Positions 3,289 to 13,531 of a stretch of DNA of 21,123 bases are shown here, piece after piece (positions within the stretch are counted from its first letter, which is position 1; each line of letters opens with the position of its first letter). This DNA is from a virus. A model generated the notes under the pieces. That model did not search any database. It saw only the letters and a list, made by a program, of their open reading frames with translations, and was not told the origin of the DNA. Position numbers and translations under genes: made by a program. The DNA is taken from the IMG/VR virus record IMGVR_UViG_3300012351_000031, positions 1 through 21,123 of that record. One strand, given 5' to 3'.

Positions 3289-3370
3289 TGGCGACTCCTG
3301 CAGGACTCGAACCCGCATTTACAATCCAGTTACCTTGATCGCGTTTCGAAGACGCGTGGGTTAAGGAGCC
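3289..3370 (-). tRNA. tRNA-Arg (TCG) without a D-arm and with a long variable region
   Basis: Acceptor GGCTCCT/AGGAGTC, G73, CCA; T-arm GCGGG/TTCGAGT/CCTGC. Anticodon arm CGCGT/CTTCGAA/ACGCG is perfect with U33. Only five bases (ACCCA) follow TA at 8-9 where a D-arm belongs, while 23 bases separate anticodon stem and T-stem and can form a small hairpin around GTAA. Same build as the gene at 7011. Confidence 0.75.
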
Positions 3371-4633: not shown

Positions 4634-4724
4634 TGGTACGCCCGCCTGGTTTCGATCCAAGTCTAGAACGGTCATCTACCGCTAAAGAGTTTATAAGTCT
4701 CTCTCGTGTCCAACACCCGGGCGC
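4634..4724 (-). tRNA. Class II tRNA, leucine-like body, anticodon read as TAT (uncertain)
   Basis: Acceptor GCGCCCG/CGGGCGT with a G1-U72 wobble, A73, CCA. T-arm CTTGG/ATCGAAA/CCAGG and a long variable arm with hairpin GCGGT/ACCGT. The anticodon arm is GAGAG/CTCTT around nine bases (ACTTATAAA), or AGAGA/ACTCT with an A-A mismatch around CTTATAA. The centre reads TAT (Ile AUA). The D-arm and the bases before the anticodon resemble tRNA-Leu(TAA) with one inserted T. Confidence 0.75.
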
Positions 4725-5178: not shown

Positions 5179-5254
5179 TGGTGCTCTCTGTCAGATTCGA
5201 ACTGACCCTGGACGGCTTCTTAAACCGCTATCTCTACCGCTGGATTAAGAGAGC
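5179..5254 (-). tRNA. tRNA with apparent AAG anticodon (Leu-like, short variable loop)
   Basis: Acceptor GCTCTCT/AGAGAGC, A73, CCA and T-arm GTCAG/TTCGAAT/CTGAC are canonical. Anticodon stem GCGGT/GCCGT (two wobbles) encloses TTAAGAA, giving AAG. The variable loop is short, unlike bacterial Leu. The 3' end of the HNH gene overlaps its 5' half. Confidence 0.78.
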
Positions 5255-6435: not shown

Positions 6436-6831
6436 CTATCCAGGCTGCTTGACTTCGTATTCTTGTTTTAACATTTCTTGAATTTTCTTGTTATTGATAG
6501 TACCAGCACGTCTCATTAAGAGCAACAATGCTGTGAAAGGAGCAGGTATCTCCCACACTTCTTTCTTATATTTCTTCGCTGCTGCCATCATTTCATTGAT
6601 AATGAATTTAGCACATTGTGTTGGTGTAGGAATATGTTCTCCATACTTCTCTACAAAATAAGAGACATATTTGATAGGAACTTCTGTAGTATCATCAAAT
6701 TGTAACATATGCCATACTGCTATCATCGAAGGATGTTCAGCTGCAAACACTACTGCTTCAAAATAATCTGCTAATTTTAATTCTTTAACAAGAATATCAG
6801 CTTCATATTCAGGAAGGCCATAGGTGCGCAT
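6436..6831 (-). CDS. GatB/YqeY-domain-like protein
   Basis: 131 aa. It opens with YGLPEYEADILVKELKLADYFEAVV (4-28), the signature of the tail (YqeY-like) domain of GatB, the tRNA-dependent amidotransferase subunit (G-L-P-x-Y-D/E-A-x-x-L then L-A-x-Y-F-E), and ends with a helical RAGTINNKKIQEMLK that fits the second part of this domain. In GatB the domain grips the tRNA elbow and acceptor; the catalytic part is absent here. In a phage with three dozen tRNAs it may bind tRNA or help make Gln/Asn-tRNA with the host enzyme (inference). SD GAGG lies seven bases before ATG 6831. It ends with UAG, so UAG is a stop in this genome. Confidence 0.75.
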   Translation of the reverse strand: MRTYGLPEYEADILVKELKLADYFEAVVFAAEHPSMIAVWHMLQFDDTTEVPIKYVSYFVEKYGEHIPTPTQCAKFIINEMMAAAKKYKKEVWEIPAPFTALLLLMRRAGTINNKKIQEMLKQEYEVKQPG

Positions 6832-7010: not shown

Positions 7011-7092
7011 TGGAGTTAACGGCGGGAGTCGAACCCGCATTTGCAATCCAGTTACCTGACTCTCGTTTCGTAGACGAGGGGGTTACGTTAAC
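7011..7092 (-). tRNA. tRNA-Arg (ACG) without a D-arm and with a long variable region
   Basis: Acceptor GTTAACG/CGTTAAC, T73, CCA. Anticodon arm CTCGT/CTACGAA/ACGAG has the same loop as E. coli tRNA-Arg(ACG). Only ACCCC stands where the D-arm should be. A 23-nt variable region holds CAG-GTAA-CTG. T-arm GCGGG/TTCGACT/CCCGC. Shares AGGTAACTGGATTG and the T-arm with the gene at 3289. Confidence 0.78.
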
Positions 7093-7096
7093 ATAA

Positions 7097-7170
7097 TGGT
7101 CCACCCTACTGGTACCGCCCCAGTGTTGCACGGTTATCGGCCGCGTGCCTTGCTTTTAGACGAAGGGTGG
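7097..7170 (-). tRNA. Non-canonical tRNA, anticodon GAT (Ile), C33, T-loop GGCGGTA
   Basis: All four stems pair well: CCACCCT/AGGGTGG, GTCT/AGGC, CGCGG/CCGTG, ACTGG/CCAGT, then A73 and CCA. The total of 74 nt fits a normal tRNA. Yet the anticodon loop is CCGATAA (C33), the T-loop GGCGGTA, and the D-loop AAAAGCA has no GG. The same three changes are shared with the gene at 7315. Confidence 0.75.
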
Positions 7171-7227
7171 ATGATTGATAACCTTTCTGAGGCGCTTCTA
7201 TGAGAGGCGTGAAAGGCATTGTTAAAT

Positions 7228-7309
7228 TGGCGTCGGGCGTGAGTCGTTACCCTCACATTCTTGCATTATCCTGCTGCAGCAGGCACAAAACACCTTTGTC
7301 AAACCCAAC
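7228..7309 (-). tRNA. tRNA-like gene with palindromic anticodon arm (possibly GCA, Cys)
   Basis: Acceptor GTTGGGT/GCCCGAC (two wobbles), G73, CCA. D-arm ACAAA-GGTGT-TTTGT. The anticodon arm is a perfect palindrome, CCTGCTGCAGCAGG; as CCTG/CAGG it leaves a six-base loop with U33 and GCA. Variable region 13 nt. T-arm GTGAG/CTCAC with the 8-nt loop GGTAACGA. It fills the gap between two other unusual tRNAs. Confidence 0.55.
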
Positions 7310-7314
7310 GTAAA

Positions 7315-7389
7315 TGGTGTGTCTTGTAGGTGCCGCCCCTACCGCCTTCTGCATGTCGAGCAGACGTTCTACTGATGAACTAAAGACAC
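7315..7389 (-). tRNA. Non-canonical tRNA, anticodon GAC (Val), C33, T-loop GGCGGCA
   Basis: Perfect stems GTGTCTT/AAGACAC, GTTC/GAAC, TCTGC/GCAGA, GTAGG/CCTAC, A73 and CCA, 75 nt in all. Anticodon loop TCGACAT has C33; T-loop GGCGGCA; D-loop ATCAGTA lacks GG. Sister of the gene at 7097. Confidence 0.75.
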
Positions 7390-7839: not shown

Positions 7840-8192
7840 TTGATAGTAAGCCTGAGATTACAGCTAACATAACAGATCGTCCCGCATTATCCCTAAGGCT
7901 GCTAAGCCTACGGCCACGAAGGGCATTTAAGGGTTCTCGGACATCCCGGAAGCATTACCTCCGCATCTGTCAAGGTCGCTTTATTTTAAGTGGCAGCGTT
8001 TCCACTTTCACGTCGAACTACTCTCCGTTCATTGATCCACCAACCTTGCGAGCTGTTCACAGGCGCTAACCCGTTATGATTCTTCGAACAAGAAACAACA
8101 TCCGCCTTGCGAGCCTCAGTTGCCAACATTACCCATAGGGCTGTTGGATTTGACCTTTTACGTTCGACGCATTCCTAGACTTTGCGTTTTTG
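7840..8192 (-). ncRNA. Gene-free structured region, module 2 of a putative ornate RNA
   Basis: No convincing frame on either strand. Hairpins seen: CCAACA/TGTTGG (8123-8147) with inner CCC-TAT-GGG, AAGTGG/CCACTT (7988-8007), AGGCT-TAGC-AGCCT (7896-7909) and TTCTT-GTTCG-AAGAA. The decamer GCTCGCAAGG, a GCAA tetraloop motif, occurs at 8044-8053 and 8105-8114. It continues the folded region beyond the tRNA-like gene at 8193. Confidence 0.5.
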
Positions 8193-8266
8193 TTATACTG
8201 GTGGGATTTGAACCCACTGTTTTCTGCTTGATATGCAGACGACCATCCAATTAGTCATCTAGTGTA
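8193..8266 (-). tRNA. tRNA-like gene embedded in the structured region, apparent anticodon ATC
   Basis: T-arm GTGGG/TTCAAAT/CCCAC and anticodon arm TCTGC/ATATCAA/GCAGA are perfect. The acceptor TACACTA/CAGTATA has two mismatches, there is an extra base before the D-stem (GAC/GTC), and CCA is missing. The loop reads ATC (Asp GAU), which is rare since A34 is almost unknown outside Arg. It may be a decayed tRNA or part of the larger RNA. Confidence 0.55.
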
Positions 8267-8806
8267 GAACTTACCACGATGTGCTAGGTTGATGCCTCGA
8301 ATCCTTTTGGGAAACAAGATACATCACACCGCCTGTCTTTTGCCTTGCGAGCTACTTAACCATACTTCAAGATTTCGTCTCTCTTTCAGTTGACGAGAGC
8401 CGTCTTCTCTTATATTGCGGGTTGCCTTTGGCTGCGAACCTCAGACTCTGTTCCCCACTATACGTTACATATAACCACTGAACTTGTTTGCGTGTAAGGT
8501 ACTCCTTGCGGGAGTTTGACTTCAGCATGCTTTCACAGAGGCCGTCATCTTCTCCTTTCGAAACCCTACCAAGTCGTCATGTCTACCCCCACGGTAAAAT
8601 GAGGGCCCGTCGCCGGGAATGCCGTACTTGCTTGAATGGATCTGTTGTTCAGACGATGCTATGTAAGCTTCACATCTTTGGCCGAGTTGCCCCGGTTTAT
8701 CCTGATGACCTCAAGCGGCCATTACTCTTACTAAATAGATTAGAAACATGAAGGACGCTTAAGCGTCTGCAAATTCCTTCACCAAGGCGCGTTGTTTGTT
8801 TCTAAT
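8267..8806 (-). ncRNA. Gene-free structured region, module 1 of a putative ornate RNA
   Basis: 540 nt without a credible gene, starting at the base after the tRNA-Val CCA. ATTAGAAACA/TGTTTCTAAT (8739-8748 with 8797-8806) closes a domain with TGAAGGA/TCCTTCA and GACGC-TTAA-GCGTC. GNRA tetraloop hairpins include CCCG-GCGA-CGGG (8606-8617) and ACTCC-CGCAA-GGAGT (8501-8515); GCTCGCAAGG recurs at 8343-8352. Size, multi-hairpin make-up and place among phage tRNAs recall GOLLD or ROOL RNAs; not proven. Confidence 0.6.
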
Positions 8807-10146: not shown

Positions 10147-10223
10147 TGGTATCCTAAGGCGGACTCGAACCGCCAACATTTAGTTTTTGAAACTAACGTC
10201 TCTGCCAATTGGACTATTAGGAC
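10147..10223 (-). tRNA. tRNA-Leu (CAA), short variable loop
   Basis: Acceptor GTCCTAA/TTAGGAT with G1-U72, A73, CCA. Anticodon arm TTAGT/TTCAAAA/ACTAA and T-arm GGCGG/TTCGAGT/CCGCC are perfect. Only five variable bases, unlike class II bacterial tRNA-Leu. Confidence 0.9.
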
Positions 10224-10637: not shown

Positions 10638-10713
10638 TGGTACTCCACACCAGACTCGAACTGGTACTTTGCAGGATTTAAATCTGCTGTCTCTGCCGTT
10701 GGACTAGTGGAGC
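10638..10713 (-). tRNA. tRNA-Leu (TAA), short variable loop
   Basis: Acceptor GCTCCAC/GTGGAGT with G1-U72, A73, CCA. Anticodon loop TTTAAAT on GCAGA/CCTGC (A-C at 31:39). T-arm ACCAG/TTCGAGT/CTGGT. Confidence 0.88.
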
Positions 10714-10808: not shown

Positions 10809-10884
10809 TGGTGTTCTACCGGGGACTCGAACCCCGACTTGATGGCTTCTAAAACCACTCTCTCTGCCGTTGGAGTAGTAGAAC
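10809..10884 (-). tRNA. tRNA-Leu (TAG), short variable loop
   Basis: Acceptor GTTCTAC/GTAGAAC, A73, CCA. Anticodon arm GTGGT/TTTAGAA/GCCAT, T-arm CGGGG/TTCGAGT/CCCCG. D-arm nearly identical to that of tRNA-Leu(TAA). Confidence 0.9.
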
Positions 10885-13457: not shown

Positions 13458-13531
13458 TGGTGGAGTAATCGAGAATCGAACTCAATGACAGTCGCTGTGC
13501 AAGAGCAACCCGCCACCCCATGGCCTACCCC
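13458..13531 (-). tRNA. tRNA-Ala (TGC)
   Basis: Acceptor GGGGTAG/TTACTCC with the G3-U70 identity pair, A73, CCA. Anticodon arm TTGCT/CTTGCAC/AGCGA; T-arm TTGAG/TTCGATT/CTCGA. Confidence 0.92.

Follow-up and report, generated by a model that had tools for sequence, protein, structure and literature searches.

The window, that is, the whole stretch of DNA analysed here, is a 21,123-bp IMG/VR virus record (IMGVR_UViG_3300012351_000031) whose source is a tailed phage carrying many clustered tRNA genes; Rfam scored 25 tRNA matches in it, every one on the minus strand. Within it lie two genes with an alternative elbow, a 74-nt tRNA-Ile(GAU) gene at 7170-7097(-) and a 75-nt tRNA-Val(GAC) gene at 7389-7315(-). 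The first-pass annotation had described two complete cloverleafs of normal lengths with A73 and an encoded CCA, naming no strand, and both are indeed present, on the minus strand: the 7/4/5/5 bp stems are all paired, loop sizes are normal, both genes encode A73 and CCA, and minimum-free-energy folding gives the cloverleaf in either case (z -2.3 for tRNA-Val). The tRNA-Ile has an acceptor stem CCACCCT/AGGGTGG, followed by TC, a D-stem GTCT/AGGC closing the D-loop AAAAGCA (7151-7157, minus), a single A, an anticodon stem CGCGG/CCGTG with the loop CCGAUAA (7134-7140, minus; C33, anticodon GAU), CAAC, and a T-stem ACTGG/CCAGT closing the T-loop GGCGGTA (7113-7119, minus), with A and CCA at the 3′-end. 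The tRNA-Val is built likewise from GTGTCTT/AAGACAC, TA, GTTC/GAAC closing AUCAGUA (7370-7376, minus; ATCAGTA in DNA), G, TCTGC/GCAGA with the loop UCGACAU (7353-7359, minus; C33, anticodon GAC), AGGCG, and GTAGG/CCTAC closing GGCGGCA (7331-7337, minus), before A and CCA.

The Rfam model RF00005 gave the tRNA-Val 44.5 bits against a gathering threshold of 29 bits and did not report the tRNA-Ile at E<=1, and ARAGORN, run on the window, reported neither 7170-7097(-) nor 7389-7315(-). A pattern for the GGCGGYA/AG elbow matched twice in the window and never in 100 shuffles, and since the shuffles were empty and the same elbow occurs in dozens of other phages, the pair is not a chance product. That the genes are not decayed, as had also been claimed, is borne out by their complete stems and by the recurrence of the elbow elsewhere, which together rule out a sequencing artefact or decay as the source of the odd loops; a wrong-strand reading is ruled out as well, because the loops share their strand with all other window tRNAs.

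Several further RNA features were observed in the window. A GOLLD RNA (7849-8332, minus; 154 bits) adjoins the tRNA cluster, and a tRNA-like gene at 8192-8266 sits within it. Two tRNA-Arg-like genes, at 7014-7092(-) and 3292-3370(-), with the anticodons ACG and UCG, have a CCC-rich linker in place of the D-arm, and both have a long variable region with the common sequence AAGGTAACTGGATTG[CT]AAATGCGGGTTCGA; their predicted folds suggest phage tRNAs that lack the D-arm. Between the tRNA-Ile and tRNA-Val genes lies a third tRNA-sized fold (7228-7312, minus); CCA follows its acceptor-like stem (CGTTGGG/CCCGACG), an arm GTGAG-GGTAACGA-CTCAC is present, and a normal anticodon arm is lacking. The window tRNA-Leu genes (5179-5254, 10147-10223, 10638-10713 and 10809-10884, all minus) measure only 76-77 nt, and those read by hand have a short variable region, in contrast to bacterial tRNA-Leu, whose variable arm is usually long; short-arm Leu tRNAs occur as well in another phage, G005, described below. 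Two more tRNA-like cloverleafs with CCA, at 4638-4724(-) and 13462-13531(-), went unreported by ARAGORN.

The phage genes identified in the window with PHROGs encode exonucleases, HNH and homing endonucleases and a glycosyltransferase, and this comparison gave no clue to host or defence besides the exonucleases, HNH and glycosyltransferase. The closest matches of the window exonuclease include Methylophilales phage Melnitz, Stenotrophomonas phage DLP_6, Caulobacter phage Cr30 and Sinorhizobium phage phiM19. The neighbouring protein at 6436-6831 returned no matches as a query for related viral loci, and the tRNA pair region, compared by blastn with phage records, returned weak matches to ordinary tRNAs and nothing else.

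Elbow contacts and anticodon loops of the two tRNAs

The canonical elbow is formed by G18-Psi55, G19-C56, T54-A58 and Y60 (PMC7912444). In standard numbering the positions of a 7-nt D-loop are 14, 15, 16, 18, 19, 20 and 21, so that AAAAGCA (A14 A15 A16 A18 G19 C20 A21) and AUCAGUA both carry A18 and G19, and the T-loop of the tRNA-Ile is G54 G55 C56 G57 G58 U59 A60. The T-loops GGCGGTA and GGCGGCA do stand in place of TTCRANN, as first reported, whereas the accompanying statement that the D-loops lack the GG pairing partner holds only in part: GG is absent, but A18-G19 is there, so G19-C56 can still form. Among the three canonical contacts, G19-C56 stays and the other two are exchanged, G18-U55 for A18-G55 and U54-A58 for G54-G58, base 60 changes from a pyrimidine to A, and G53-C61 and R57 are retained; G55 thus faces A18, and 19-56 is Watson-Crick. 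Judged from the genes, the elbow appears to have been swapped for another contact on both sides and not lost, and A18-G55 and G19-C56 would pair in three dimensions, an assignment that rests on the fixed register of the 7-nt D-loop.

C33 had been listed in the first pass together with the elbow changes. It is real in both window tRNAs, but it is not tied to the elbow and was rejected as part of an elbow syndrome, because canonical-elbow phage tRNAs carry it too: C33 occurs in 29/499 phage tRNAs, namely 11/280 with a canonical and 18/219 with a variant elbow. It is a second peculiarity, independent of the elbow. C33 is found mostly with G34 anticodons (GAU, GAC) and mainly in YCGAN loops, chiefly of Ile GAU and Val GAC, with either elbow type; for instance, the canonical-elbow tRNA-Val(GAC) of Xanthomonas phage X1 (L381:857) has the loop UCGACAC, near-identical to UCGACAU of the window tRNA-Val. 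C33 in YCGAN loops could be a separate escape from anticodon nucleases.

Rewired elbows recur in phage tRNAs

With both loops fixed, the search pattern recovered numerous full cloverleafs from viral contigs other than the window. A scan of IMG/VR in which the GGCGGYA T-loop, G53-C61, U33, A37, A21, U8 and ACCA were fixed and 18-19 were left free gave a complete listing of 105 stretches; after filtering for paired stems, 60 distinct cloverleafs of many isotypes were obtained, and A18G19 was found in 60/60. As a control, TTCGA cloverleafs across these same phage loci (2 Mb) have GG at 18-19 in 187/187. Two further IMG/VR scans, with the D-loop predicted beforehand for the T-loops GGCAGYA and AGCGTNA and with 18-19 again left free, gave AG in 72/72 and 96/96 cloverleafs, respectively, among the matches listed. 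Across the members with G55, A18 lies opposite and 19-56 is Watson-Crick in 182/187. The first-pass reading that both sides of the elbow had changed together, which points to selection, is supported by the co-change seen in all three scans, and the possibility it had raised, that no homologue would carry the same changes, is decisively contradicted. The window pair falls within a class of rewired-elbow phage tRNAs that is widespread and has gone largely unnoticed.

The share of rewired tRNAs differs between phages. The variant elbow is present in 17/18 cloverleafs of G005 (107 kb) and 13/14 of G004 (219 kb), the tRNA set of G006 is mixed (14/37 variant, 23/37 canonical), and G011 and G007 also keep canonical-elbow tRNAs. 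G005 (IMGVR_UViG_3300025838_000023; L357-L362) was further seen to encode a CCA-adding enzyme, GroEL, a class II aminoacyl-tRNA synthetase and a Tad3-like Thoeris inhibitor. Most tRNAs with a long variable arm have the canonical elbow (217/245 among the matches listed). When cellular genomes were searched with the same pattern, three cloverleafs were found among 118 stretches in the matches listed: the first is identical to a viral-contig gene and lies within a Bradyrhizobium tRNA array, the second is on a short Obscuribacter MAG contig carrying several tRNAs, and the third, within GC-rich coding sequence that has no other tRNA, is probably due to chance. A pattern too loose to be informative, applied to 399 genomes of one phylum, gave matches no more numerous than its reversed control. 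Among the cellular matches listed, the rewired-elbow class appears largely viral or mobile. The Bradyrhizobium array (sp. Ai1a-2, L272, NZ_AUEZ01000004) holds at least 22 tRNA genes in the same gene order as the viral contig L214 of IMG/VR, with a sequence-identical variant tRNA-Val, and could represent a prophage or a mobile array of tRNA genes.

Both elbow loops change in compensation

Cloverleafs with a non-UC elbow were gathered in two samples of 219 and 451 (about 670), the second being among the matches listed. In 7-nt D-loops, the combinations at 18-19/55-56 are GG-UC (canonical), AG-GC, GA-UU, GU-UA, AC-GG and AU-GA, and AA-GU appears in the second sample; 19-56 takes all four Watson-Crick pairs (GC, AU, UA and CG), and 18-55 has two main states, G-U and A-G. 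Compensation was counted on 7-nt D-loops (fixed register), with the scan-target loops excluded, against 5,000 shuffles in which kinship is ignored. 19-56 is Watson-Crick in 141/145 of the first sample (shuffles: mean 109, maximum 118) and, among the matches listed, in 374/381 of the second (mean 338, maximum 346), and 18-55 is GU or AG in 140/145 (mean 79, maximum 99) and, again among the matches listed, in 368/381 (mean 284, maximum 305). When the D-loop register is slid, the signal vanishes. Positions 54, 58 and 60 co-vary too, U54-A58 going mostly with U60 or C60, and G54-G58 and A54-U58 mostly with A60. Two tRNA-Lys genes (L076 and L135) that differ at 6/52 core bases combine AG with GGCGG (L076) and GG with GUCAG (L135), a contrast which indicates that 18-55 flips as a unit with G54-G58 constant. 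The shuffles ignore shared ancestry, and the weight of the compensation rests on the variety of isotypes, stems and contigs; the compensated elbow structure is well supported and, in our judgement, very probably correct.

Identity elements and cultured phages

Identity elements were scored on class members (Ala G3-U70 and His C73), as distinct from the window Ile and Val genes. G3-U70 is present in 20/20 variant tRNA-Ala of the first sample and 15/15 of the second, among the matches listed, and in only 3/199 and 3/436 of the non-Ala variants (6/635; second sample among the matches listed). C73 is found in 14/15 variant tRNA-His of the first sample, 11/15 of which also have G-1, and in 14/18 of the second, among the matches listed; U33 is kept in 199/219 variant tRNAs. 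With these elements kept, the class looks like chargeable, decoding tRNAs and not decoys, its members presumably being transcribed and charged, and the decoy reading offered earlier for the window pair is disfavoured.

Conservation in cultured phages points the same way. A tRNA-His with the D-loop AAAAGUA and the T-loop GGCGGUA or GGCAGUA is conserved in Streptomyces phages (Boydwoodruffvirinae) despite stem changes, as read in eight genomes (Mildred21, Warpy, Bmoc, Targaryen, LilMartin, Coruscant, Mandalore and Jay2Jay), and relatives of it are found in 33 records; it is annotated in some genomes and missed in others, and several of these genomes also have a canonical tRNA-His. Xanthomonas phage X1 has milder variants, UUUGA with a GA-containing D-loop, and AUCGU. 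A blastn search with concatenated variant tRNAs gave few matches, Mildred21 and X1 among them. Such conserved variants point to selection for a chargeable, decoding tRNA, as far as sequence comparison can tell.

To our knowledge, 18-55 and 19-56 are regarded as invariant elbow pairs, on which tRNA finders depend. ARAGORN recovered 276/280 canonical and 84/219 variant tRNAs, including 7/67 with GGCGG and 0/24 with GGCAG, and with so low a recall of the variants many phage tRNAs must be absent from annotations. In the open-licence literature searched, no account of phage tRNAs with compensated elbows was found; the rewired molecules are tRNAs, with an elbow type not described there.

Discussion

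Based on these findings, we propose that phage tRNA elbows have been rewritten by compensatory change and thereby escape something that reads the canonical elbow, a reading to which we assign a probability of about 0.6. The elbow would be rewritten as coupled modules, with 18-55 as G-U or A-G, 19-56 as any Watson-Crick pair, and 54-58 (with base 60) as U-A, G-G or A-U, and the L-shape, charging and decoding would be preserved, as the kept stems, CCA and identity elements suggest. The near-universal GG and UUCRA read by host factors would be eliminated from the phage tRNA. U54, U55 and A58 are the targets of TrmA, TruB and TrmI (PMC7912444), and in a tRNA with no U54, U55 or A58 these targets would be gone; elbow-reading nucleases would likewise be left without a canonical T-loop or D-loop sequence. 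The benefit would be phage tRNAs that stay usable while an agent recognizing the canonical elbow cuts, modifies or withdraws those of the host, and shielding from tRNA-cutting defences or modification enzymes, as the first pass had suggested, may be the best reason available. Elbow escape is the leading explanation in view of its precedents: phage tRNAs evade tRNA-cutting defences via anticodon-loop changes (PMC10264068), T5 tRNA-Lys evades PARIS AriB (PMC12409363), the toxin CdiA-CT E479 cleaves inside the T-loop (PMC9086364), and the CRISPR nuclease Cas12a3 trims tRNA 3′ CCA tails, touching the T-arm backbone (PMC12851939). By analogy with these systems, the odds that escape from an elbow-reading host factor is the reason for the change seem about even, any particular agent being a candidate. 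That the elbow has been rebuilt time and again in diverse phages to escape an undescribed, common bacterial system recognizing the canonical elbow is a more tentative proposal, which we place somewhat below even odds. Canonical tRNAs stand beside variant ones in many phages (as in G006), which indicates that the escaped agent would not be uniformly imposed.

The main rival is near-neutral compensatory drift, in which, phage tRNAs being dispensable, weakened intermediates are tolerated and the elbow moves among pairings compatible with the fold, with nothing escaped. Part of the elbow pattern could come from such drift in non-essential genes, as the mixed tRNA sets of many phages, the several different elbow solutions side by side, an R57 free to flip (GGCGG versus GGCAG between the tRNA-His of Mildred21 and Jay2Jay) and an intermediate, G54-G58 with G18-U55 in the L135 tRNA-Lys, are all consistent with it. 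As the whole explanation, however, drift is less likely than escape: an uncompensated 19-56 is rare (4/145, and 7/381 among the matches listed), 54, 58 and 60 switch as a set, a small number of loops recurs convergently in many isotypes and contigs, and cellular genomes could drift too, yet they gave three cloverleafs among the 118 matches listed.

Considerably less probable is a marking of self and non-self, whereby the phage's own enzyme destroys or blocks canonical-elbow host tRNAs and the rewired ones are spared. The almost complete conversion in G005 and G004, as well as the CCA-adding enzyme and class II aminoacyl-tRNA synthetase encoded by G005, would fit this explanation, but most phages (G006, G011 and G007) keep canonical tRNAs open to the same enzyme, and these mixed sets make an own elbow nuclease unlikely as a general explanation; Pfam, moreover, identified no elbow nuclease among the 36 G005 phage genes scanned. 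The least probable explanation, that these are non-translational tRNAs, serving as amino-acid donors off the ribosome or as nuclease sponges, draws on the loss of the canonical elbow and the C33 of the window pair, which would be expected to weaken ribosome use, but has against it the prevalence of U33, the almost complete isotype range, the retained identity elements and an elbow compensation that a decoy would not need.

If the rewired elbows do represent escape, the class points to an elbow-reading selective agent, which would be a target of a new kind in the arms race over tRNA. With their compensated elbow swaps, these phage tRNA genes, hundreds in number, also amount to a natural mutagenesis experiment on tRNA architecture, in which a rule that ranks among the most general in tRNA structure is broken in a rule-bound manner, and through the Streptomyces phages, which have laboratory hosts, the class is open to direct test.

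Compared with the canonical tRNA elbow, the phage class uses the same positions and the same stacking logic and keeps R57 and G53-C61, but differs in having A-G at 18-55, G-G (or A-U) at 54-58 and A60, and in other members A-U, U-A or C-G at 19-56. Suppressor tRNAs with altered D/T-loop pairing, selected in the laboratory by the Steinberg group, reportedly function in E. coli with alternative elbows; those are artificial, whereas the phage elbows are natural and recurrent. The staphylococcal peptidoglycan tRNA-Gly, which lacks GG and TPsiC and is used outside the ribosome, is a bacterial tRNA that resembles the class in its altered D- and T-loop signature, but it is a single cellular isotype, whereas the rewired tRNAs are phage-borne, of many isotypes and compensated; a cell-wall tRNA of the Staphylococcus kind is ruled out by the many isotypes and the compensated elbows. 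Cas12a3 and CdiA-CT E479 show that the T-arm or T-loop can be engaged by nucleases of immune or toxin systems, and are candidate pressures only, Cas12a3 contacting mainly shape and backbone. Like the defence-evading phage tRNAs (PMC10264068; PMC12409363), the rewired class is altered where a host factor reads, with decoding kept; however, T-loop, D-loop and elbow go unmentioned in one of these reports (PMC10264068), and in the class reported here it is the elbow that has changed, in nearly every isotype and with compensation in both loops.
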